A DNA stretch of 64,000 nt, taken from the NCBI GenBank assembly GCA_902771725.1, contig CACXXT010000001.1:124001-188000 (forward strand), written 5' to 3'. A program made the position numbers and the translations under genes. A model generated the notes under the pieces. The model was not told the origin of the DNA, did not search any database, and was given only the letters and a program-made list of their open reading frames with translations. The DNA is from an uncultured Bacteroidales bacterium. Lineage in GTDB: Bacteria; Bacteroidota; Bacteroidia; Bacteroidales; Bacteroidaceae. Positions 13,427-64,000 of the stretch are shown piece after piece (the first letter of the stretch is position 1; each line of letters starts with the position of its first letter).

Positions 13427-13462
13427 AAAGATTTGTAGGTGTTGGTGAAGTCATAAAATAAA

Positions 13463-25860: not shown

Positions 25861-25998
25861 TATAGAGTTTAGAGTTTAGAGTGGCTTCGCTTTCGTTGTT
25901 TATAGAATTTCGAGTGCAAAAATAGGTAAAATAGAGGCAAAAAGAGCCTTGAAGGCAAAAAACTTTCAAAATTCAGCACTATTCACCTAACTTTTTTA

Positions 25999-28171: not shown

Positions 28172-29272
28172 CTAAAGAGTTTGTGTAGATGATAAAGGTT
28201 CTATTCCGTAGAAATCCGGGAAGCGTACGGGAGCAAATCCCCGGGCGATGCTCTCCTCGGAAAGGGGGATGACGGCGCACCAGGTGGCGAGGTCATTGAT
28301 GTCAATCCCGAAAGGCCTGCCCCCGGTAAGGGCTGCTATCAAGCGCCGGTTCATGGCGAGCGTCATCTCCTGATGCGACGGGCGTCCCGTGTCGTGGAGT
28401 TCAATGCGTTCGCGGGTGCCGATGAAGAGCAGCCGGCGGTCGTAGGGCTGGGAGGTCATGACATCGTGGCGCAAGAGTATGGTATGCCCCCGGCGTGTGC
28501 GTAGGAGGGTGGTGGTGTGGTCACCATTCTGGAAGTCCTGGGCCTCCGCACCCGTGTGGTTCTTATATTGTTGGGGACCGGAAAAGGCACCGGTGTCCAT
28601 GCAGACGAGGGTCTCCAGTGTGTCGGTCTTTCCAATTCCCATGGCCTGACAGATAGGGCCCAGCTCGTGGGTGGGGTATAGGTCTCCGCGCCGCTGGCGG
28701 TTCATCTCCAGCCTCCATGTGGTCCAACGGTCGTCCAGGCAGTGGTAGTAGTTCCCTTCGGCATGCACGACCTCCCCGATGTCGCCCCGGTGTATGGCCT
28801 CGATGGCCTCCATCGTCTGCTGTTCGAAGCAGGCGTTCTCCAGCAGGAAACAGTGGCGGCGGGTTTCCCGGGCGGTGCTCAGGAGCAAGTGCACTTCTTC
28901 CAGCGTCGTGGCTGCGGGAACCTCAATGGCCACATCCTTTCCCTGACGCATGGCCTCCACGGCGATGTGGGGATGGGAAGTCCAGTCCGTGCAGATATAG
29001 ACCAACTCGACGGCCTCCATCCGGCATACCTTCTTGTAGGCATCTGCACCATGAACGCACTCTGGAGCAGAGCCATCGGGCAGCAAGAGCCGGGCCTGCG
29101 CCACATTGGATTCGCTGAGGTCACAGAGGGCTACAATCCCCGCAGATTCCACGGGGAGCATCAGCTGGAGAGTGGTACGCCCACGCTCGCCCAAGCCTAC
29201 AAAAGCGACCCCGATGCGGCGCGAAGGCGCTGACGGCGGCAGAGAGCCCGAAAGATGGTGAGTTGTTGTCAT
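28172..29272 (-). CDS. Gfo/Idh/MocA oxidoreductase, GH109-like
   Basis: 366 residues. N-terminal Rossmann fold with GLGERG (26-31) for NAD(H), then ALCDLSESN and YICTDWTSHPHIAVEAMRQG. The middle segment RGDLYPTHELGPICQAMGI resembles the YPTHGLGP signature of GH109 enzymes, which cleave alpha-N-acetylgalactosaminides by an NAD-dependent mechanism. Here the Gly after the His is Glu, so activity may differ. No clear signal peptide is present, although the first 17 residues are Ser/Pro-rich. First gene of a three-gene operon; a TATTTTTG element lies at 29303-29310. Confidence 0.85.
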   Translation of the reverse strand: MTTTHHLSGSLPPSAPSRRIGVAFVGLGERGRTTLQLMLPVESAGIVALCDLSESNVAQARLLLPDGSAPECVHGADAYKKVCRMEAVELVYICTDWTSHPHIAVEAMRQGKDVAIEVPAATTLEEVHLLLSTARETRRHCFLLENACFEQQTMEAIEAIHRGDIGEVVHAEGNYYHCLDDRWTTWRLEMNRQRRGDLYPTHELGPICQAMGIGKTDTLETLVCMDTGAFSGPQQYKNHTGAEAQDFQNGDHTTTLLRTRRGHTILLRHDVMTSQPYDRRLLFIGTRERIELHDTGRPSHQEMTLAMNRRLIAALTGGRPFGIDINDLATWCAVIPLSEESIARGFAPVRFPDFYGIEPLSSTQTL

Positions 29273-29302
29273 TAAGGAAGTCTAATTGGGAGATTAACGC
29301 TG

Positions 29303-33909: not shown

Positions 33910-36123
33910 TCAATATTGGACCTCCAGGAAAAACTCGAAGTGGCGTCCGGCCATTGGGCGGGAGAGCACGGTGACGTACTCTGAGTCGAGGAGGTTGTAG
34001 ATGGCAGCTTTGAGGGATGCCTGCAGACGGCGCCACCGGAACTGCTTCTCGATGGTGAGGTCGCTCATGTAGTAGGGCTTGAGGCGTCCGGTGATGTAAC
34101 TCACCTCATTGCTGGTGGTGGTGAAGCGTTCGCTATAGGAATACCATTGATAGGTCAGAGCCCAGGTGCGCCAACGGAGACGGGCACAAAGGTTGGCGGA
34201 GTGTAGGGGGACGTAGACGAGTTGCTTGCCGTAGGAAGCATCGGCGGCATCGAGGTCCTCGCTATGGTTGAGCGAGGGCGTGTAGGCGTAGTTACCGGTG
34301 AGAGTGAAGTGCCAGTCGAATGGGAGGTGCAGCTCAGCGGTGAGGGTGAACTCTGTGCCGTAGTTATGTACCTTCTTCAGGTTGGAGGGCTGCCAGTAGC
34401 CTTTGGCATTGGGTGTCCAAAGAATCCAGTCGGTGATGTAGGAGTCGAAAGCCGAGAGGTTGCCCTTGAAGGAGAGAAAGGCACCCTGCAGGCCGAGGGG
34501 AAACTGCACGTTGCCCTCCAGACCGCCATCGTAGGTAAATCCTCGCTCTGGACGAAGGTCGGGATTGCCACCGGGTTTGAAGTAGAGGTCGTCCATGGTC
34601 GGGTAGCGGTAGTTGCGGGCGACGGATGCCTTGAGATAGAGTCCTGCAGTGCGGTTGCCGTGGACTGAGGAAGAGAGCAGGGTGTACTCTCCGAAGAGGG
34701 CTGGAATCAGGGGCACGAGGTCACGACGATACAATTCTTCCCGCAGGACTGCCGAGAGAGTCAGGCGTTTGGTGGGGCGGTATTTAGCCGAGAGGCTGAG
34801 TGATGATTCCAGGCGACCTTTGTTGTAGTTGTCGCCGATGTGGAAGGGACTCTGATCGCGGCTACGGACGTGGTTGTAGGTGACATCGAGGTTGGCGGTG
34901 AGGAGCCAGTCGGCAGCGGGGGAGTAGTCGGCCTTGGCTTGGAGGTAGGCTTGATGGCTGTAGCTGTGGGAGTCGGTGATGGTCGTGAAAGCGGAGGTGG
35001 AAGAGGAAGAGGGGGAGGCGACGGCGGACGAACCGCCGTCCACGGAACCTGAGGAGGAAGAGGGGGAGGAAGTGGAAGGGGAAGAGGGGGAGGCGACGGC
35101 GGACGAACCGCCGTCCACAGGACCTGAGAAGGAAGAGGAGGAGGAAGTGGGAGAGGAGGTGGTGTGGGATTTGGTGGCGTAGTCGTAGGCGAGGGATTGA
35201 TAGGAGTAGCCGGCACGGGCTTCGAGGGAACTCTGGCTGCCGAGGGGCTGCTGCCAGGAGATGACACTGCGAACGGCATCCTGCAGTTGTTCGTTGCGGA
35301 AGTCGTTGTCGTCACGGTAGTCTACACTCAGAAAAGGTAAACCCCGCAGGCTGTGGGTGAACCACACGGCAGCGGTGGCGAGTGCTCCGGGAACACTTGA
35401 AGGGCGGAGGGAGAACTCCTGGAGGGCGTGGAGGTCGTGGAAGTAGCCGCTGCGATTCAGTTCCGTAGGATGGTAGGAACGGATAATATTGCCCGTGGCA
35501 TCGCGCTCATCCACTTTCTTGTCGTAGTTCGTATAGTGGAATCTGTTGTTGCTGGTGGCGTAAACCACGCGTGTGCTGCTGGTCCAGCGCTGACCGCCAT
35601 AGGTGAGGCGCAGGAACTGGTCGTAGGTGTCGTAGGAACCGATGCCCTGAACGTACTGAACGCCTACCCCACGTTTGCGAACTGGACGTGTGCAGAGGTC
35701 CACGGCTCCTCCCAAACCGCCACCGGTCAGCGTCAGTGACGATGCCCCATGCAGCAGATTGGCTTCGTCTACAAAATAGGCGGGAATGGTGCTGAAATCA
35801 ACCGTTCCAAGCATCGGAGAATTGATTTCCAGCCCGTTCCAAAGGACCTGGGTATGGCTGGGTGAGGTGCCTCGGAATTCTGCTGTGGACTCAGTGGCAC
35901 GACCATAGCTCTTGATGAAAAGCGAAGAGTGCTGGGTGAGGATATCGGACATAGAGAGCGCGACGTTCTGATGCAGGATGGCGGTGTCGAGGGTGGTGCG
36001 CTGGATGCCAGCCTCGCTGAGGCGGCGCTGGGCTGTGACGCGCACTTCGTGCAACAAGCTGTCCGTCTGTGCACAAAGTGCACAGCTACACAGAAAGGCT
36101 ATAAGGGCGATACGTCCTCTCAT
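33910..36123 (-). CDS. btuB: TonB-dependent cobalamin receptor, BtuB-like
   Basis: 737 residues with signal peptide (LCSCALCAQ). TonB-box-like HEVRVTAQ follows, then the plug (SDILTQHSSLFIKSYGRATE; GGGLGGAVDLCTRP) and a 22-strand barrel ending FEFFLEVQY with a terminal aromatic. Residues ~317-380 are an unusual Ser/Pro-rich insertion (SSPTSSSSS and two copies of GGSSAVASPSS), coded by a 75-bp tandem duplication. It probably sits in an extracellular loop between two strands. It imports B12 from surface proteins such as BtuG. The start overlaps the upstream gene by 4 bp. Confidence 0.9.
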   Translation of the reverse strand: MRGRIALIAFLCSCALCAQTDSLLHEVRVTAQRRLSEAGIQRTTLDTAILHQNVALSMSDILTQHSSLFIKSYGRATESTAEFRGTSPSHTQVLWNGLEINSPMLGTVDFSTIPAYFVDEANLLHGASSLTLTGGGLGGAVDLCTRPVRKRGVGVQYVQGIGSYDTYDQFLRLTYGGQRWTSSTRVVYATSNNRFHYTNYDKKVDERDATGNIIRSYHPTELNRSGYFHDLHALQEFSLRPSSVPGALATAAVWFTHSLRGLPFLSVDYRDDNDFRNEQLQDAVRSVISWQQPLGSQSSLEARAGYSYQSLAYDYATKSHTTSSPTSSSSSFSGPVDGGSSAVASPSSPSTSSPSSSSGSVDGGSSAVASPSSSSTSAFTTITDSHSYSHQAYLQAKADYSPAADWLLTANLDVTYNHVRSRDQSPFHIGDNYNKGRLESSLSLSAKYRPTKRLTLSAVLREELYRRDLVPLIPALFGEYTLLSSSVHGNRTAGLYLKASVARNYRYPTMDDLYFKPGGNPDLRPERGFTYDGGLEGNVQFPLGLQGAFLSFKGNLSAFDSYITDWILWTPNAKGYWQPSNLKKVHNYGTEFTLTAELHLPFDWHFTLTGNYAYTPSLNHSEDLDAADASYGKQLVYVPLHSANLCARLRWRTWALTYQWYSYSERFTTTSNEVSYITGRLKPYYMSDLTIEKQFRWRRLQASLKAAIYNLLDSEYVTVLSRPMAGRHFEFFLEVQY
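35016..35165 (-). repeat. 75-bp tandem duplication within btuB
   Basis: The block AGGCGACGGCGGACGAACCG (continuing CCGTCCAC) occurs at 35016 and 35091, exactly 75 bp apart, within a purine-rich tract of GAGGAAGAGGGG type. It encodes two copies of VDGGSSAVASPSS separated by Ser/Pro residues. The length keeps the frame. Confidence 0.85.
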
Positions 36124-50252: not shown

Positions 50253-50328
50253 CGGAAAAAGATTAAAGTTTCGGGTCTCGTGCGGTTAGTTTTTCCATTT
50301 GGAAAAGCGGGGAATGGTCTTTTTTGCC

Positions 50329-50336
50329 TATCTTTG
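50329..50336 (+). promoter_or_regulatory. -7 element of the tamB-tamL unit
   Basis: TATCTTTG, 25 bp before the ATG at 50362; it rules out the longer frame starting at 50299. Confidence 0.6.
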
Positions 50337-50361
50337 TGCCGAAAAACGTTCGCCTTCGCCT

Positions 50362-53300
50362 ATGAAACGTCTTCTGAAGTGGCTCGGAATCGCCTTGGCT
50401 GTGTCCTTGCTGCTGATTCTCGTCGCAGGCATGCTGCTGTATGTGCCTCCCGTGCAGGATTTTGCTGTGCGGAAGGTGGCTGCGTATGTTTCCGAGCAGA
50501 CGGGAACCGACGTCTCCGTGGGGCGGCTCCGGCTGAGCTTCCCGCTGGATCTGGATGTTCAGCAGTTGACGATGCTCGATGCCGGCGGCGACACGCTCGT
50601 GGCTGCCGATCATGCGCTGGTGGACCTTGACCTTAGTAGTATTTTGCGCGGGCGCGTGGGACTGGATGCCGTGACGCTGCAGCGTGCGCAGGTGGACACC
50701 CGGGAGTGGATAGCCTCCACGCTGATTCGCGGACGCCTGGACGAGCTCACGCTGCACGACGACGTGGACTTGAAGGCGCAGCACGTGGCACTCAGCAGCG
50801 TGGAGGCTCGCGGACTGGATCTCGACATCGCGCTGCGCGACACCACCGTGGAGGAGGACACCACGGAGAGTGCTCCGCTGGCATGGATCATCGACGTGGA
50901 GCGCGCCTCCATCGAGGATGCCCGGGTGCGATTCGCCATGGACGGCGACTCTGCGCTGGAGGTGCAGACGGGCGTACGCTCGCTGGTGGCTGCCGACGGG
51001 CATGTGGATCTCGGACGCCAGCTCTACGAGGCGCGGCATGCCGAGCTGCAGGCAGACAGCGTGCGCTTCTGGCCTTCAGGGACCTCTGCGGAGCTGCTGG
51101 CGCTGGACTCGCTCGCGCTGGCGGCAGACAGCATCGCCTTCGACGGCGAGCGCAGTCATTTGTCGCTGCCCTCGTTGGCGCTGCACACGCCGCACTCCGA
51201 CCTCCGAGGCGGCGTGGACATGGACTTCCGCGCGCTGGCGGCAGGGCAGGGTGGGGGACTGGATCTCCGTCTGGACACCCGCTGGAGCCGCGACGACCTG
51301 CTGCGTCTGCTGCGTCCGTGGCTGCCTGCTGATTTCCTCGAAGGCTTCTTCCGCCACTATCCAGACCGTCCGCTGGACGTGCGCCTGAATGCCGAAGGAA
51401 ACATAGACCGCCTGTCGCTGAGCAGCATCAGCGCCACCCTTCCCGGCAGCTTCCATCTCGACGCCGGCGGCGACATCACCTCGCTCCTGGACTCCGCGGC
51501 GCAGGGTGGGCGGCTGAACTACGACGTGCAGACTCAGGACTTGCGCTGGGTGACCGCCTGGCTGGATGTCCCCGGGCTGCGTCTGCCTCCGATGACGCTG
51601 CAAGGCAGCGCCACCGCCTCCGGCACCCGCTACGACGTCGATGCGCAGCTGCGCGAAGGCTCCGGCGCGCTGAACCTGCAAGGCGGCGTGGACACGCGCG
51701 GCGCGCTGAGCTACGATGCCCGTCTGCGCGGGAGCAACGTGAATCTGAATCATTTCCTGCCTGCCGACAGCCTCGGCACCGTCAGCTTCAGCGCCACGGC
51801 CAGAGGCAGCGGCACCGACTTCCTGGCGCCTGCCACGAGGCTGGATGCCCAGATGCAGCTGGCGCGCTTCCATTACAGGCACATCGACCTGAGCGGACTC
51901 CAGCTGGAGGCACGTGTGGCTGGCGGACGTGGGCGCGCACGGCTGCACAGCGACACGGAGCTGCTGGCAGCCACGGCGGAAGTCGACGCGCTGCTGGCAC
52001 GCCAGCTGACGGAGCTGACCTTCGGACTGGATCTCAGCCACGCCGACCTCCATGCGCTGGGACTGACGGAGGAACCCCTGCGCACCTCCATGTGCATGCA
52101 CCTCGACGGCTCCACGAACCTCAGCGACCGTCACAGCCTGCGCGGCACCGTGGCGGACATCATCCTCCAGCCCGGCGACACCCTGTTCCGCCCCGAGGAC
52201 ATCGAGCTGGAAGCCGAGCTGACGCCGGACACCACACACCTCTATCTCACCAGCGGCGACCTGCTGCTGACGGCCAACGGACGCACGGGCTACAACCGTC
52301 TGCTGGACCAGCTGTCGCACTTCACCGACGAGTTCAGCCGCCAGATGAAGGAGCGCCGAGTGGACACCGGCGAGCTGGCTTCGCGCCTGCCGCAGATAGA
52401 CCTACACCTGCGCTCCGGAGAGCACAATCCCGTCCACGACATCCTGAAGTCCATGGGCTACGGATTCGAGCGCGCACACCTGGATCTGAACCTCGACCCC
52501 ACCGTGGGCATCAACGGAGGAGGACACATCTACAGCCTCACTCCCGGCGCCATCCAGCTGGACACCGTCGGCTGGCACATGTACCAGGACAGCACCGGAG
52601 TGAAGATGGACGCCCGCGTGCGCAACAGCAAGCGCAATCCCCAGATCACCTTCGACGCGCGGATGAACGCCTACCTGCTGCCCACCGGCGCCGGAGCCAC
52701 CCTGACGTACTTCGACGAACGCGGACGCAAGGGAGTGGACCTCGGACTGCTGGCGACCATCGAGGAAGAGGGCTTCCGCCTGCACATGGATCCCCTGGAT
52801 CCCATCCTCGCCTATCGCACCTTCCACCTCAACGACAGCAACTACGTCATGCTCGGACGCGGCAACCGCGTCTCGGCGAATCTGGATCTGCTGGCCGACG
52901 ACGGCACGGGTCTGAAGCTCTATTCCTCTCCCAACGAGGATGCGCTGCAGGATCTCTCGCTGGCGCTCAACCGCTTCAACCTCGGCGAGCTGATGACGGT
53001 GCTGCCCTATGCTCCCCGACTGACGGGTTATCTCCACGGCGACGCCCACCTCATCCAGACGGCCGAGAATCTCAGCGTGTCCACGGACCTGACCGTGAAC
53101 AACATGACCTTCGAGGGTGCCCCCCTGGGACAGATAGGCCTGCAGGCTGTTTACCTCCCAGAGTCTGACGGTAGCCACTTCATCAATGGCACACTGATGC
53201 AGACGGGCGTTCCCGTGGCCACCTTCTCCGGCACCTACACCCCGCGCGAGAGCGACGGCCTGCTGGACGTGGCAGCCACGCTGGACCGCCTCCCCTTCTC

Positions 53301-54816
53301 CATGCTCAACGGATTCTTCCCCGATGCCCTAGCGCGCCTGGAAGGTGTGGCCATCGGCGACGTACACGTCGGAGGAACCACCGACAAGCCCGTCGTCGAC
53401 GGACAGATGAGCACCAGCGGACTGCGCCTGCTCTCGGATCCCTACAGCCTGAACCTCCGCTTCGCCGACGACACCATCCGCGTGGAGCGCAGCAACCTGA
53501 AGTTCGACCACATGAAGGTGTTCTCCGCCGGCAGCAATCCCTTCACCTTTGACGGAGGCATCGATTTCGCAGACCTCAGCCGCATCGGCGTCAACGCCAA
53601 CCTGACTGCCAACAACTTCGAGCTCATCAATGCGAAGAAGACCAAGAACTCCGTCGTCTACGGAAAGGTGTTCGTGGATTTCAGCGCCATGCTCCGCGGC
53701 ACGCTGGACAACCTGCGAATGTTCGGACGCCTGAACGTGCTCGGCGCCACGGATCTGACCTACGTGCTCTCCGACTCGCCTCTCACCGTGGAGGATGAGC
53801 TGGCAGACCTCGTGGAGTTCGTGGACTTCGAGGACAGTACACGGGTGCTCAACGAGGAGCGCAGCCAGCCCATGAACATCAACATGACCATGAGCGTCAG
53901 CATCAACGATGCTGCGCAGATACATTGCCTCCTCAGCCCCGACGCCACCAGCTACGTGGACCTCGAAGGCGGAGGCGACCTCACGATGACCTATTCGCCC
54001 GAAAAGAACCTCCAGCTCAACGGGCGCTACACCATCAACAGCGGCACCCTGAAGTACACCATGATGGTCATTCCCCTGAAGGAGTTCACCATCAAGAACG
54101 GCAGCTACGTGGAGTTCCGCGGACCGCTGATGAATCCCACCCTGAATCTCTCGGCCACCGAGCGCCTGCGCACGACGATCACCGAGAACGACCACCCGCG
54201 CAGCGTGAACTTCGATGTCGGGATGAATATCACGCAGACGCTGGAGAACCTCGGACTGGAGTTCACCCTCGACGCTCCCGACGACTTGTCGCTGCAGACC
54301 GAGCTCATGACGATGTCTGCCGAGCAGCGCGGACGCGTGGCGGTGACGATGCTCGCCACGGGAATGTACTTCAACGAGAACGGCAGCAACGGAATGACCG
54401 GGCAGAACGCGCTCAACGCCTTCCTCCAGAGCCAGATATCCAACATCACCGGCAAGGCGCTGAAGAGCGTGGACCTCAGCATAGGAGTGGAGCAGGGTAC
54501 ATCCGCCACGGGGTCCACACAGACGGACTACAGCTTCCGCTTCGCCAAGCGATTCTGGGGCAACCGAGTCAGCGTCATCGTTGGCGGAAGGGTGAGCTCC
54601 GGAGCCAACGTGGAGAACACCGGCGAGACGCTCATCGACAACCTCAGCGTGGAGTACCGACTCGACAAGAGCGCCACGCGCTACGTCAAGCTCTTCTACG
54701 ACAAGAACAACGAGTCGCTGCTCGACGGAGAAGTCATCGAGATGGGCGGAGGCCTGGTGCTCCGCCGAAAGACCAACAAGCTCGGAGAACTCTTCCTCTT
54801 CCGGAATCCGAAGTGA
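50362..54816 (+). CDS. tamB: TamB-like inner-membrane translocation/assembly or lipid-transport protein
   Basis: 1484 residues. One N-terminal membrane anchor (KWLGIALAVSLLLILVAGML), then a very long beta-helical AsmA/TamB-type body of repeated amphipathic strands with phrases such as LDVQQLTMLDAGGDTLVAAD, VSVGRLRLSFPLDLDV and YGKVFVDFSAMLRGTLDNLR. A C-terminal TamB domain (DUF490) follows (~1130-1480: YTINSGTLKYTMMVIPLKEF; GRVAVTMLATGMYFNENGSN; SFRFAKRFWGNRVSVIVGGR). It spans the periplasm, partners a BamA-type barrel (TamA/TamL) and probably moves lipids or helps outer-membrane assembly. tamL follows 80 bp downstream. Confidence 0.95.
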   Translation: MKRLLKWLGIALAVSLLLILVAGMLLYVPPVQDFAVRKVAAYVSEQTGTDVSVGRLRLSFPLDLDVQQLTMLDAGGDTLVAADHALVDLDLSSILRGRVGLDAVTLQRAQVDTREWIASTLIRGRLDELTLHDDVDLKAQHVALSSVEARGLDLDIALRDTTVEEDTTESAPLAWIIDVERASIEDARVRFAMDGDSALEVQTGVRSLVAADGHVDLGRQLYEARHAELQADSVRFWPSGTSAELLALDSLALAADSIAFDGERSHLSLPSLALHTPHSDLRGGVDMDFRALAAGQGGGLDLRLDTRWSRDDLLRLLRPWLPADFLEGFFRHYPDRPLDVRLNAEGNIDRLSLSSISATLPGSFHLDAGGDITSLLDSAAQGGRLNYDVQTQDLRWVTAWLDVPGLRLPPMTLQGSATASGTRYDVDAQLREGSGALNLQGGVDTRGALSYDARLRGSNVNLNHFLPADSLGTVSFSATARGSGTDFLAPATRLDAQMQLARFHYRHIDLSGLQLEARVAGGRGRARLHSDTELLAATAEVDALLARQLTELTFGLDLSHADLHALGLTEEPLRTSMCMHLDGSTNLSDRHSLRGTVADIILQPGDTLFRPEDIELEAELTPDTTHLYLTSGDLLLTANGRTGYNRLLDQLSHFTDEFSRQMKERRVDTGELASRLPQIDLHLRSGEHNPVHDILKSMGYGFERAHLDLNLDPTVGINGGGHIYSLTPGAIQLDTVGWHMYQDSTGVKMDARVRNSKRNPQITFDARMNAYLLPTGAGATLTYFDERGRKGVDLGLLATIEEEGFRLHMDPLDPILAYRTFHLNDSNYVMLGRGNRVSANLDLLADDGTGLKLYSSPNEDALQDLSLALNRFNLGELMTVLPYAPRLTGYLHGDAHLIQTAENLSVSTDLTVNNMTFEGAPLGQIGLQAVYLPESDGSHFINGTLMQTGVPVATFSGTYTPRESDGLLDVAATLDRLPFSMLNGFFPDALARLEGVAIGDVHVGGTTDKPVVDGQMSTSGLRLLSDPYSLNLRFADDTIRVERSNLKFDHMKVFSAGSNPFTFDGGIDFADLSRIGVNANLTANNFELINAKKTKNSVVYGKVFVDFSAMLRGTLDNLRMFGRLNVLGATDLTYVLSDSPLTVEDELADLVEFVDFEDSTRVLNEERSQPMNINMTMSVSINDAAQIHCLLSPDATSYVDLEGGGDLTMTYSPEKNLQLNGRYTINSGTLKYTMMVIPLKEFTIKNGSYVEFRGPLMNPTLNLSATERLRTTITENDHPRSVNFDVGMNITQTLENLGLEFTLDAPDDLSLQTELMTMSAEQRGRVAVTMLATGMYFNENGSNGMTGQNALNAFLQSQISNITGKALKSVDLSIGVEQGTSATGSTQTDYSFRFAKRFWGNRVSVIVGGRVSSGANVENTGETLIDNLSVEYRLDKSATRYVKLFYDKNNESLLDGEVIEMGGGLVLRRKTNKLGELFLFRNPK

Positions 54817-54825
54817 ACTTTTTTA

Positions 54826-54890
54826 GTTTAGAGTTTAGAGTTTAGAGTTTAGAGTAGTTTTTAAGTTTAGAGTTTAGAGTTTAAAGATAG
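54826..54890 (+). repeat. TTTAGAG heptamer repeat between tamB and tamL
   Basis: About seven units of TTTAGAG, the purest copy of this repeat family in the window, filling the tamB-tamL gap. Confidence 0.85.
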
Positions 54891-54896
54891 CGTGCA

Positions 54897-57524
54897 ATGA
54901 AGAAGATGCAGACATACAAGGAAGGTGCGAAGGCGGTGCAGAAGGCATCCGTCTGGCTCGCCCTGTGCCTCTCGCTTGCCGCGCCCCTCTGCTCGTTCCT
55001 CCTCGCCTCCTGCTCCACCACCGAGAACCTGCCGGAGGGCGAGGTGCTCTACACCGGCATCACCGAGATCGCCTACGGACGACGCGCGCGCCAATACGGA
55101 AAGAAAGCGCAGACGACGGCGGACAGCACAGGCGTCATCACCGCCATCGCCGACGCCTACACCGCCGTGGAGGACCTACTCACCGGCAACACCGACGCCA
55201 CCGCCATGATCAGCCGCATGAGCGAGCGAGCCAAGGACCACGAGCTCAGCCGAGAGGAGCGCGACAGCCTCCGCCGCGAGATCGACGTCTACCAGCAGGC
55301 CTTGCGCACCGCACAGGTAGAGGTCGACGCAGCGCTCGCCTACGCTCCGAACAACAGCGTCTTCGGCAGCACATCTGCCCGATGGCCCTTCCCCGTGGGA
55401 CTCTGGTTCTACAACGGATTCGTCAACGATACCACGCGCTTCGGACGCTGGGTCTTCGACTCCTTCGCTGCCACGCCGCGCACCATCTCCACCGCCAATC
55501 CCCGCCTGCGCACGCAGATTGCGCGCAACACGCTGCGCAACTACGGCTTCTTCCACGGCCGCGTGGACTACGAGGTGCAGCCCCAGCGGCGCGATTCCCT
55601 CAAGGCGCGACTCGCATACTCCGTCTTCCCGGGACCCCTCTACCGCCTCGGCAGCATCGAGTACCAGCGCTTCGGACACACCACAGACAGCCTTATCCGA
55701 GCCACCTCCGAGCTGACAAACCTCCACACCGGCGACCCCTTCACTGCCATCCAGCTCGATGCCGAGCGTCGACGCCTCTCCGACCTCTTCCGCAACAACG
55801 GATTCTACTTCTACCGCCCCGAGTACATCACCTTCCGAGCAGACACCCTCCAGAAACCCCTCACCGCTCACCTCCAGGTGCGCCCGGCTCCCGACATGAC
55901 GCCGCAGGCGCGCAACCGCTACTACATGGGGCGCACCAGCATCACCGTGCTCTCGCAAGGTGACTTCCGAGTCACCGACAGCCTGCTCACCCGCGACGGC
56001 AACATTCTCCGCTGGAACGGCAGCACACAGAAGCCGCCGCTGCGCTACGGAGCCATACGGCACTACCTCTTCTACGAGCGAGGATCGCTCTACCGCCAGC
56101 GCCTGCACGAACTCATCCAGTCCAAAGTCAACGGCATGGGCATCTTCTCCAACGTGCAGATGAACTATGTGCCGCGCGACACCTCAGCCACCTGCGACAC
56201 CCTCGACGTCAACATCTTCGCCATCCTCGACAAACCCTACGACAGCGAGCTCGAAGCCAAACTCACCAACAAGACCAACGGACTGCTGGGACCCGGAATA
56301 GGATGGGGAATGACCAAGCGAAACGTCTTCCGGGGAGCCGAGACGCTGAACTTCAAGGTCTACGGCTCCTACGAGTGGCAGACGGGCATTCCCTCAGAGG
56401 ACACAGACCGCAGCCTCCTCAACTCCTTCGAGCTCGGAACATCGCTCACGCTCACCTATCCCCGACTGAAGTTCTTCGGACTCACGCGCAAGCTCAACCG
56501 CCGCGCGCAGGCATCCACCGTCTACAAGGTGGACATCGACTGGATGAACCGGGCATCCTACTTCCAGCTCGTCAGCTTCGGAGCACGACTGACCTACACC
56601 TACCAGCGACGGCGCGACATCCGCCACGAGTTCGTCCCCCTCCGCCTGGACTACAACATGCTCACCCACCGCTCCGCACGCTTCGACTCCATCATGAACT
56701 CCAACCAGGCGCTCTACGTCAGCATGCGCAACCAGCTCGTGCCATCCATGGCCTATACCTTCACCTACGCTCCCCGAGCCGTCGGAGGACACTCACGGGC
56801 CCTCATCCTCAGCGCCAAGCAGGCGGGCAACATCACCAACACCATCTACAGCCTCTGCGGACGCCCCGTGCGCGAGCGCAACAAGCACCTCCTCGGAGTG
56901 CCCTACGCCCAGTTCCTCAAGCTCACCGCAGAGTGGCGCGAGACGTTCCCCCTGACACCCACCACAGCCATCGCCACCAGAGCCTTCCTCGGAGCCGTCT
57001 GGAGCTACGGCAACAGCACCATGGCACCCTACACAGACCTCTTCAACGTCGGCGGAGCCAACAGCATCCGAGCCTTCGGCGTCCGCACCATAGGCCCCGG
57101 ACGCTACCACCCCTCGGCATCCGGATGGAGCTACGTCGACCAGGTGGGCAACCTCAAGCTGGAGCTCAACGCCGAGTACCGCTTCCCCGTCGTAGGAGGA
57201 CTCTCAGGAGCCGTCTTCCTCGATGCTGGAAACGTCTGGCTCATGCAGCCCGACGCCGACCGTCCCGGCGCCGCCATCGACGCCCGCCACTTCTTCCGCG
57301 ACATTGCCCTCGGCACAGGAGTTGGACTGCGCTACGACCTCGACTTCCTCGTCCTCCGATTCGACATCGGCATCGGCATCCAACTGCTTCAGCCGTTCTT
57401 CCATGCAGGTAAGCATCTGCGATGTTCCCATCGTCATATCATAAACAGTCTTGGAAATGCCATCGCCCATAAATGCAGACTCATCGCCGGCCACAAGAAG
57501 GTCGCTCATCAGATAGATCCCTAA
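54897..57524 (+). CDS. tamL: TamL-like (BamA/Omp85) outer-membrane lipoprotein with a replaced C-terminus
   Basis: 875 residues. Lipobox FLLASCSTTENLPEGEVLY. POTRA-like domains occupy ~30-480, the Omp85 barrel ~480-840 (GGANSIRAFGVRTIGPGRYH; LELNAEYRFPVVGGLSGAVF; GVGLRYDLDFLVLRFDIGIG). Relatives end with one more loop and a last strand closing in an aromatic residue (GLHFAIGYPF type). Here the match stops at GIGI (~57378) and the final 47 residues (QLLQPFFHAGKHLRCSHRHI and on to AHQIDP) are unrelated. The missing strand carries the signal needed for membrane insertion. The tail DNA reads better on the minus strand as the start of another gene (57375-57509). Either a rearrangement or an assembly join. 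Confidence 0.85.
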   Translation: MKKMQTYKEGAKAVQKASVWLALCLSLAAPLCSFLLASCSTTENLPEGEVLYTGITEIAYGRRARQYGKKAQTTADSTGVITAIADAYTAVEDLLTGNTDATAMISRMSERAKDHELSREERDSLRREIDVYQQALRTAQVEVDAALAYAPNNSVFGSTSARWPFPVGLWFYNGFVNDTTRFGRWVFDSFAATPRTISTANPRLRTQIARNTLRNYGFFHGRVDYEVQPQRRDSLKARLAYSVFPGPLYRLGSIEYQRFGHTTDSLIRATSELTNLHTGDPFTAIQLDAERRRLSDLFRNNGFYFYRPEYITFRADTLQKPLTAHLQVRPAPDMTPQARNRYYMGRTSITVLSQGDFRVTDSLLTRDGNILRWNGSTQKPPLRYGAIRHYLFYERGSLYRQRLHELIQSKVNGMGIFSNVQMNYVPRDTSATCDTLDVNIFAILDKPYDSELEAKLTNKTNGLLGPGIGWGMTKRNVFRGAETLNFKVYGSYEWQTGIPSEDTDRSLLNSFELGTSLTLTYPRLKFFGLTRKLNRRAQASTVYKVDIDWMNRASYFQLVSFGARLTYTYQRRRDIRHEFVPLRLDYNMLTHRSARFDSIMNSNQALYVSMRNQLVPSMAYTFTYAPRAVGGHSRALILSAKQAGNITNTIYSLCGRPVRERNKHLLGVPYAQFLKLTAEWRETFPLTPTTAIATRAFLGAVWSYGNSTMAPYTDLFNVGGANSIRAFGVRTIGPGRYHPSASGWSYVDQVGNLKLELNAEYRFPVVGGLSGAVFLDAGNVWLMQPDADRPGAAIDARHFFRDIALGTGVGLRYDLDFLVLRFDIGIGIQLLQPFFHAGKHLRCSHRHIINSLGNAIAHKCRLIAGHKKVAHQIDP
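57375..57509 (-). pseudogene. Antisense gene fragment (N-terminal 45 codons) fused to tamL
   Basis: Minus-strand ATG at 57509 begins MSDLLVAGDESAFMGDGISK and continues TVYDMTMGTSQMLTCMEERL to KQLDA. After this the frame becomes the antisense of tamL (acidic nonsense). Codons of this piece are AT-richer than the surroundings. I do not recognise the protein. It looks like the 5' end of a real gene joined tail-to-tail to tamL at a shared GGCATC. Confidence 0.5.
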
Positions 57525-57575
57525 ATTCCCCTCCTAAATTCCCCCTCCGATAATTCACCCCCTAAATCCCCCCTC
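57521..57575 (+). repeat. Degenerate CCCCTCCTAAATT repeat
   Basis: Four imperfect units of CCTAAATTCCCC type between the tamL stop and the BNR gene. Its position next to the tamL break makes it a possible recombination site. Confidence 0.6.
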
Positions 57576-57577
57576 CT

Positions 57578-59485
57578 ATGTTTACCTTCCCCCTCTCCCT
57601 CCGTCCCGTTTCTTCCGCGGCATTTTTATTGCGGCACCTCTCCCTCGCTTTCCTCCTCCCCCTCCTCTCCTCTCCCCTGCGCGCCGCCTCCGTCGCGCCC
57701 TATCCCTATCCCCGCATCTTCTGGGACACCACCACGCGCCGCACCGTCTTCTCCAGCGGCGGCTACGCCCGCATCATCCAGCTGCAGGACGGCCGCCTGA
57801 TGGCCGTCTGCGAGCACAGCGGCATCGACATCGCCTTCAGCTCCAACATGGGCAAGACCTGGACCGCCGCCAAGCGCATCGTCACCAACACCAACAACAC
57901 CCCCAACTGCGTCCCAGACCTCATACAGCTCCACGACGGCACCATCGTCGTGGGCTACAACCCCCGTCCCTCCGAGCCCTACACCGAGGACCGCCGCTTC
58001 GGCATCCGCTGCAAGCGCAGCACCGACAACGGGCGCTCCTGGAGCGACGAGATCTTCGTCAACGACGCCAGCTACACCTTCCACGACGGCTGCTGGGAGC
58101 CAGCCTTCCTACAGCTCCCCTCCGGCGAACTCCACCTCTACTTCGCCGACGAAGGACCCTACACCACCAACGGCGACCAGCAGATCTCCCTCTGCCGCAG
58201 CTTCGACGGAGGACAGACATGGACCAAGGCACAGAAAATCTGCTACCGCCAAGGCTTCCGCGACGGCATGCCCGTGCCCATACTCCTCCAGCCTGCACAG
58301 GAAATCGTAGTCGCCATCGAGGACAACGGATGGGGCTACGGCGACTTCCTCCCCACCACCGTACGCACCACGCTCCAGAACAACTGGCAGAACTACTGGG
58401 TCAGCGCCACAGACAAGAACCGCGACTGCTCGCTCAACTTCGACTTCTGCCCCGTGGCAACAGGAGGAGCACCATACCTCCGCCAGCTGCCCTCCGGAGA
58501 GACCGTCATCAGCCACCAGTCGCCCTACGCCAACGACGGCAAGATACAGATGCGCGTGGCCGTGGGAAACAACCAGGCGCGCGACTTCCGAGCCGTCAGC
58601 ACACCCTTCGGCGAGGCGCAGCACAACCCCCAGGGACTCTGGAACTCACTCGCCGTCATCGACACAGGCGTCGTCGTCGCCGTGTCCGGCATCGGCGGAA
58701 AGATAGAGATGATCAAGGGATACCCCACACGCCAGCTCCAGGCCGCCTTCGGACATCCCCTCGTCGACGGACGCCTCACGCGCGACGAAGGCTACACCCG
58801 CCCCGACGCCACGCAGATACTCCTCGGAACAGACTGCGGAACGCGCGTCGCCGCAGACTTCGCCTACGACCTCGACTCGCTCTACTTCATCGCCAACGTC
58901 TTCGACAACACCCCCGCCACAGGCAACAACAACCCCGACCTCGTCACACTCCTCCTCGAAGTCGAAGGCTCCACGGAGACCGCCCCGCAGCCCACCAGCT
59001 ACAAGCTCCAGCTCCGCGCCGCAGGCTCCTTCCTCGCACAGCGCGGACAGAGCCGGGCATGGCGGCGCATCACCGGCGGAGAATTCACCATGAACCTCGT
59101 CGCTGCCACCTTCCGATCCAACTACGTCGTCGAGGCTGCCATCCCATGGAGCGCACTCGGATGCCAGCAGCCACCCATAGGAGCGCGCATGGCAGCCGCC
59201 ATCGAAGTCACAGACAACCGCGACGGAACCGTACTCCACGAGACCATCCCCGACGTAGACCAGCAGCGACCCTGGACATGGATGGAACTCCGCCTGCAAC
59301 CCCTCCCCGACGGCATACACGACATCCCCCAATCCAATTCCCAATCCTTAAATCCTCAAATCCTTAAATCCTTAAATCCCCTCGATCTCAGCGGCCGCCA
59401 CGTATCCTCCCTCCCCGCCGGCATCGTCATCACCCGCCGTCCCGACGGCACAATCCGCAAACTATGGAACAGCAGAAAACCCTGA
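57578..59485 (+). CDS. Secreted BNR/sialidase-like protein with CBM9-like domain
   Basis: 635 residues with an N-terminal signal (LLPLLSSPLRAAS). The propeller has Asp-box repeats: SSNMGKTWT, STDNGRSWS, SFDGGQTWT. It covers ~40-370 and resembles exo-alpha-sialidase-fold proteins; the full sialidase Arg triad is not obvious, so another glycosidase or lyase is possible. Residues ~385-590 resemble the family 9 carbohydrate-binding-like domain (GHPLVDGRLTRDEGYTRPDA; LDSLYFIANVFDNTPATG). The tail has LDLSGRHVSSLPAGIVITRR, preceded by a stretch coded by AAATCCTTA repeats (59336-59378). It overlaps the sulfatase gene by 22 bp. Confidence 0.85.
   Translation: MFTFPLSLRPVSSAAFLLRHLSLAFLLPLLSSPLRAASVAPYPYPRIFWDTTTRRTVFSSGGYARIIQLQDGRLMAVCEHSGIDIAFSSNMGKTWTAAKRIVTNTNNTPNCVPDLIQLHDGTIVVGYNPRPSEPYTEDRRFGIRCKRSTDNGRSWSDEIFVNDASYTFHDGCWEPAFLQLPSGELHLYFADEGPYTTNGDQQISLCRSFDGGQTWTKAQKICYRQGFRDGMPVPILLQPAQEIVVAIEDNGWGYGDFLPTTVRTTLQNNWQNYWVSATDKNRDCSLNFDFCPVATGGAPYLRQLPSGETVISHQSPYANDGKIQMRVAVGNNQARDFRAVSTPFGEAQHNPQGLWNSLAVIDTGVVVAVSGIGGKIEMIKGYPTRQLQAAFGHPLVDGRLTRDEGYTRPDATQILLGTDCGTRVAADFAYDLDSLYFIANVFDNTPATGNNNPDLVTLLLEVEGSTETAPQPTSYKLQLRAAGSFLAQRGQSRAWRRITGGEFTMNLVAATFRSNYVVEAAIPWSALGCQQPPIGARMAAAIEVTDNRDGTVLHETIPDVDQQRPWTWMELRLQPLPDGIHDIPQSNSQSLNPQILKSLNPLDLSGRHVSSLPAGIVITRRPDGTIRKLWNSRKP
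59336..59378 (+). repeat. AAATCCTTA repeat inside the BNR gene
   Basis: Units of TCCTTAAATCC, encoding SLNPQILKSLNP just before the C-terminal tail. Related to the intergenic TTTAAGG family (its complement). Confidence 0.7.
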
Positions 59486-63364: not shown

Positions 63365-64000
63365 TCAGAACTGGAAATAGATGAACGCCTGTTCGTCGGC
63401 ATGGCAGAAGAGGATGAGGAGGATAAGTGCGTAGTAGACAGCCCAGCGGACAGCGCGATGGCGCAGGATGCCGCAGGCGGGGAGGTCGAGAGCATGGGCG
63501 CGCGAGCGCTGAAGCCACTCGATGAGCAGCAGGGCAGCACTCCAGAGCAGAGCGCTCTTGCCCATGGTCAGCGTGGAGAAGGCAAAGAGGGAGGACAGGT
63601 GGCAGAGACCGCGGCAGTAGGCGGCGAAGGCGGAGAGATCCGGAGCGCGGAAGAGAATCCAGCCGAAGCTGACGAGGAGGAAGGTGAGGAGTGTAGAGTT
63701 TAGAGTGTAGGGTTTAGAGGAGTTTAGAGTTCTCAAGACTCGCAAGCTCGAATGAGCGACTAGAAGTCGAGCGGAGAGTTTAGAGTTCTCAAGACTCACT
63801 TTGTTCGAATGAGCGAGCAAGCTCGAGCGGAGAGTAGTTGAGAGTTTAGGGGAGTTTAGAGTTTTTAGGGTTTTCTCGATGCAGACGAGCAGGCCGTGGT
63901 AGAGTCCCCAGAGGACATAGGTCCAGGCGGCGCCGTGCCAGAGTCCGCTTAGGAGGAAGGTGGTGAGGGTATTGGCGTACTGGCGCAGGCGCGAACAGCG
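63365..64000 (-). CDS. MBOAT-family O-acyltransferase (C-terminal part, cut by window edge)
   Basis: The frame is open to the right edge, giving ~211 C-terminal residues. TFLLSGLWHGAAWTYVLWGL carries the MBOAT active-site His. Two to three further membrane helices follow (LLTFLLVSFGWILFRAPDL; AVYYALILLILFCHADEQAF). Between them lies a ~55-residue hydrophilic stretch coded by the TTTAGAG-type repeat (63692-63870). MBOAT proteins pass acetyl groups across the inner membrane; the SGNH partner is next. Confidence 0.85.
   Translation of the reverse strand, partial: RCSRLRQYANTLTTFLLSGLWHGAAWTYVLWGLYHGLLVCIEKTLKTLNSPKLSTTLRSSLLAHSNKVSLENSKLSARLLVAHSSLRVLRTLNSSKPYTLNSTLLTFLLVSFGWILFRAPDLSAFAAYCRGLCHLSSLFAFSTLTMGKSALLWSAALLLIEWLQRSRAHALDLPACGILRHRAVRWAVYYALILLILFCHADEQAFIYFQF
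63692..63870. repeat. TTTAGAG repeat plus AGTCTTGAGAACTCT units inside the MBOAT gene
   Basis: TTTAGAG heptamers alternate with two ~50-bp imperfect copies of GAGTTCTCAAGACTC...CGAATGAGCGA...CGAGCGGAGAG. The insertion keeps the MBOAT frame open and lies between two membrane helices. Confidence 0.8.

Follow-up and report, generated by a model that had tools for sequence, protein, structure and literature searches.

Within the window, the 64,000-nucleotide stretch of DNA analysed here, the gene tamL, encoding an Omp85-type outer-membrane protein, lies between tamB and a BNR-repeat (sialidase-like) gene, and its last codons run into a foreign fragment in inverted orientation (Table 1). The locus belongs to contig C1 of a 3.72 Mb genome in 147 contigs (97.5% complete, 1.9% contaminated), which, judging by the contig number, the completeness values and the relatives, would be a metagenome assembly.

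Table 1. Features of the tamL region in the window (plus strand, +; minus strand, −; not stranded,.)
Feature	Coordinates	Strand	Description and basis
tamB	50299–54816		PF04357; directly upstream of tamL
Fused tamL ORF	54897–57524	+	Omp85 and POTRA domains; ORF list
tamL native part	54897–57382	+	828 residues to RFDIGIGI plus two shared bases; NF052279 and G121 alignment
Alien tail and stop of the fused tamL ORF	57383–57524	+	47 residues from the codon at 57381; ORF list
Shared 20-base word GACATCGGCATCGGCATCCA	57363–57382	.	Fits tamL (+) and hsdM (−); first breakpoint
Internal hsdM piece (type I RM methyltransferase)	57363–57518	−	52 codons, inverted relative to tamL; tblastn, nt/aa alignment
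Tandem array CCTAAATTCCCCT	57520–57578	.	Direct repeats, period 14, 4.3 copies; Tandem Repeats Finder; abuts the second breakpoint
BNR-repeat (sialidase-like) gene	57578–59485	+	PF13088; expected downstream gene, present there in G121 and G141 too

The tamL gene and its lost 3′-end

The fused product matches the profile NF052279 (NCBIfam lipo_TamL) at 672 bits (cut-off, 400 bits), with query residues 130–829 covering profile positions 32–717 of 747. Its N-terminal side carries the features of the TamL family, namely LASCSTT near the N-terminus, the domains PF07244 and PF01103, and an adjoining TamB, whereas a complete 16-strand barrel with an aromatic-ending final strand is not found, the profile match stopping at 717 and the GYPF end being gone. 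The preliminary description had placed the stop of the homology at GIGI near 57378 and a break at the last strand; both hold, as the tamL of the sister genome G121 can be aligned up to 57382 only, and the last 31 native residues (a hairpin and the final β-strand with GYPF) are replaced by 47 unrelated ones. In the relatives read, TamL ends in HAPY-TG--GYYN--F--SLGFH-AVGYPF-stop, while the fused product ends in QLLQPFFHAGKHLRCSHRHIINSLGNAIAHKCRLIAGHKKVAHQIDP. The loss amounts to nearly 100 coding bases, and tamL is the only gene in the window that loses so many relative to G121. A search of the rest of the genome for the missing end, as had been proposed, found no second location for it, and the other TamL match in the genome is a single 29% paralogue on contig C106, which is probably BamA.

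In a genome set with one genome per species, tamL, a single-copy gene, was found in 135 of 139 congeners and is near-universal. All 52 distinct same-genus genomes that were read have the intact tamL end, in one of them on another contig, on which a tamL cut by a contig end continues, and the alien tail occurs in none, so that the relatives with the same tail that would have marked a genuine variant did not appear. The TamL of G121 is 88% identical and has the same neighbours, with 86.7% nucleotide identity of the gene up to 57382. The last 100 codons of tamL show 24 synonymous to 4 nonsynonymous differences, so that strong constraint acts on the gene as far as the join.

The G121 DNA alignment is collinear from window position 13447 to the contig end, with a break at 57382 and resumption at 57595; the other breaks in the window are intergenic, near a gene end, one whole extra gene, or internal indels of at most 15 bases. 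As the flanks on either side follow the order of the sister genome, the foreign part is confined to the middle. In the MAG G005, tamL is spread over two contigs (C29 and C118, loci L025 and L060) with an exact 99-base overlap, and the contig ends 15 bases past the same tamL position. This indicates that assemblers do branch at the tamL 3′-end.

Downstream, the BNR-like gene has its counterpart next to tamL in G121 (89% identity), and in G141 the identity is 69%. The end of this gene contains the start codon of a sulfatase gene (59464–59485, a 22-base overlap), and in genome G003 the sulfatase directly follows tamL without the BNR gene. The BNR gene leader (57599–57668, CCGTCCCGTTT...TTGCGGCACCTC) recurs at two other places in its own genome as diverged copies (76%), and in G121 (L190) it is present as a tandem duplicate upstream of the BNR homologue.

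The inverted hsdM fragment and its breakpoints

The sequence joined to tamL had been described as the inverted start of a gene. The inverted, alien nature of the piece was borne out, but it is not a gene start. By tblastn against plasmids, it matched the class I DNA methyltransferase HsdM of the Selenomonas ruminantium plasmid pSRC6 (WP_014426060) with 86% amino acid identity over 44 residues, and more weakly other plasmid HsdM proteins adjoining hsdS/hsdR. The alignment begins at residue 196 of a 595-residue protein bearing the N6_Mtase and HsdM_N domains (PF02384, PF12161), and the piece is therefore internal and its ATG an internal methionine; the homology opens three codons upstream of MSDLL (I-Y-L-M-S-D) and continues through ...LDADADV. 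Pfam, NCBIfam and PHROGs models gave no match to the 43-residue fragment, the identification coming from the plasmid tblastn only.

Among the collected genomes, the nearest relative of the piece is in the uncultured Erysipelotrichaceae RUG087 (98% amino acid and 84.6% nucleotide identity), and further Bacillota relatives are found in a Clostridiales MAG, Blautia, Anaerobutyricum and others from rumen and gut sources. Compared with the Erysipelotrichaceae gene, 24 of the 52 codons differ, 23 of them synonymously and 1 nonsynonymously, which indicates that selection for hsdM function acted on the piece up to a very recent time. Its G+C content is 49%, against 64% in tamL. With about 85–98% amino acid identity over 52 in-frame codons, it resembles the HsdM of Bacillota, but differs in being an internal fragment lacking the surrounding hsdM as well as hsdS and hsdR; a complete type I RM system is not present at the locus, where only these internal codons stand between tamL and the BNR gene. 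The proposed search for an intact copy thus yielded the identity of the fragment, a Bacillota-type HsdM, but no intact copy in its own genome, where no second copy of the piece was found either. Among the other 138 genus genomes, only distant relatives (48–56%) occur, in 2 of them. The exact fragment was absent from the viral contigs searched, and the viral relatives were limited to three distant matches.

At the first breakpoint, hsdM homology running from 57518 down to 57363 meets tamL homology running up to 57382, giving an overlap of 20 bases. The earlier remark that GGCATC is common to both sides of the join is correct but understated, as the whole of GACATCGGCATCGGCATCCA is compatible with either gene. 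The G121 tamL reads GACGTCGGCATCGGCATCCA at this place, matching at 19 of 20 positions, and seven hsdM genes also match the 20-mer of the window at 19 of 20. In five or more hsdM genes, the longest reverse-complement word in common with the G121 tamL is an exact 13-mer that lies exactly at the first breakpoint; a common word of at least 11 bases at two random points of the genes has a probability of about 1e-5. Because the exact donor hsdM was not found, the full 20-base overlap is inferred, whereas 13 exact bases are directly visible between the G121 tamL and known hsdM genes.

The second breakpoint, 57518/57519, touches the 14-bp array, the CCTAAATTCCCC repeat that had been noticed after the join and is real. 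Patch plus overlap measure 156 bp, which would be about the length of one Illumina read. Searches at the junctions found no RNA families. A collapse of long repeats at the second breakpoint was considered and rejected, since the CCTAAATT array and the leader are each unique in the genome at up to 3 mismatches.

Origin of the tamL/hsdM join

The final barrel strand bears the signal recognised by the BAM complex (PMC10945584), and the last strands of the TamL barrel are the predicted docking site of TamB; TamL has been reported as essential in Flavobacterium johnsoniae and Capnocytophaga canimorsus (PMC12045153). The preliminary description had left both an assembly error and a real variant open, and the weight of the evidence favours the error. 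We consider that the tamL/hsdM join is a local misassembly rather than a real mutation, with a probability of roughly 0.7. An assembler or gap-filling step would have departed from tamL at a word of 13 bases or more, up to 20, that this gene has in common with the reverse complement of a conserved part of hsdM, run for about one read length through the hsdM of another, Bacillota, member of the community, and re-entered native intergenic sequence at the short tandem array; the true tamL of the organism would then be intact. Both the missing read support at the join and the step responsible are what we infer here.

Several observations are in line with such an error. The piece comes from another phylum, undecayed and without a source in its own genome; the breakpoint falls on the longest word common to tamL and several hsdM genes; the second end abuts a tandem array and the patch is probably about one read long; a contig of G005 breaks near the same position; and the gene is strongly constrained up to the join and reported essential elsewhere. 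Since the consensus genome has undecayed foreign DNA interrupting a gene reported as essential, an assembly error is an easier explanation than a real event. Local assembly errors are a recognised problem of MAGs (PMC7111523), and the join resembles the errors and chimeric joins described there in being a short wrong stretch in an otherwise correct contig, with an incorrect protein-coding sequence, formed at a short overlap beside a repeat. As expected of a local error, the feature is absent from relatives, which carry native sequence there, with all 52 intact and G121 collinear on both sides. Such errors are, however, defined by missing read support, while the tamL join is known here from the assembled sequence. 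Against a misassembly, contig C1 is long (200 kb), otherwise collinear with G121 and free of Ns, and no long repeat forces an error at the join, the array beside it occurring only once in the genome; moreover, the scar of a real event mediated by microhomology would look identical.

Such an event, a very recent double illegitimate recombination in which a Bacillota hsdM piece took the place of the tamL 3′-end together with some of the intergenic sequence, is distinctly less probable, though it deserves to be weighed. The hsdM DNA, brought in for example by a plasmid or conjugative element, would have annealed at the shared word and over a few bases at its opposite end, and the TamL of the cell, lacking the last strand, would probably be non-functional. 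Consistent with it, there are 13–20 bases of microhomology at one end, such HsdM genes do occur in gut bacteria on plasmids that are mobilizable or conjugative, and the patch is free of decay, as expected of a fresh event. The process itself, double illegitimate recombination without homology, is known (Hulter and Wackernagel 2008, cited in PMC4437187), and the likeness lies in a short run of foreign DNA taking the place of resident sequence with no extended homology and with microhomology at an end. Here the foreign patch has its 13–20 bases at the first end, and at the second at most a few bases are assessable for microhomology. The present case differs from the process so described in that a reportedly essential gene is broken, phyla are crossed and one assembled genome only is concerned. 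The recombination would also have to break a single-copy gene kept by nearly all congeners and yet be the population consensus, in a gene reported essential in other Bacteroidota and with no donor hsdM in the genome. That the join is real, with less than 200 bp of a Bacillota RM gene having replaced the tamL end via microhomology in a living Bacteroidales whose lineage survives without a closed TamL barrel, strikes us as unlikely.

Far more improbable is a natural functional variant of tamL or a switchable 3′-end that draws on a stored alternative through programmed inversion or cassette exchange. The inverted orientation of the piece and the short word common at the join could suggest it, but inverted repeats were sought at the junctions and not found, neither the native end nor a second copy of the piece is stored elsewhere in the genome, no relative has such an arrangement, and the piece consists of ordinary hsdM coding sequence in reverse, without a barrel-strand pattern. 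This reading is largely refuted.

If the join is an error, a 13- to 20-base coincidence between unrelated conserved genes has made a gene of a high-quality MAG look broken when it is not, and false genes of this kind find their way into databases; if the join is real, a short-patch DNA exchange between phyla, in the gut, is documented and the essentiality of TamL in Bacteroidales is put in question.

Other features of the window

Relative to G121, an extra whole gene interrupts otherwise collinear sequence at 28172–29281 on the minus strand; it encodes a 369-residue Gfo/Idh/MocA-type oxidoreductase, whose NCBIfam matches, to glycoside 3-dehydrogenase and related enzymes, are weak and fall below the cut-off. 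Short tandem arrays of 7–8 bp units (AGTTTAG, AATCCTTA) are found in many intergenic regions (54825–54883, 25863–25882 and 63689–63719), and one array of such units lies inside the 3′ part of the BNR gene (59343–59379). A 75-bp tandem repeat of 2.2 copies with 91% matching is located within a long ORF at 34993–35157.
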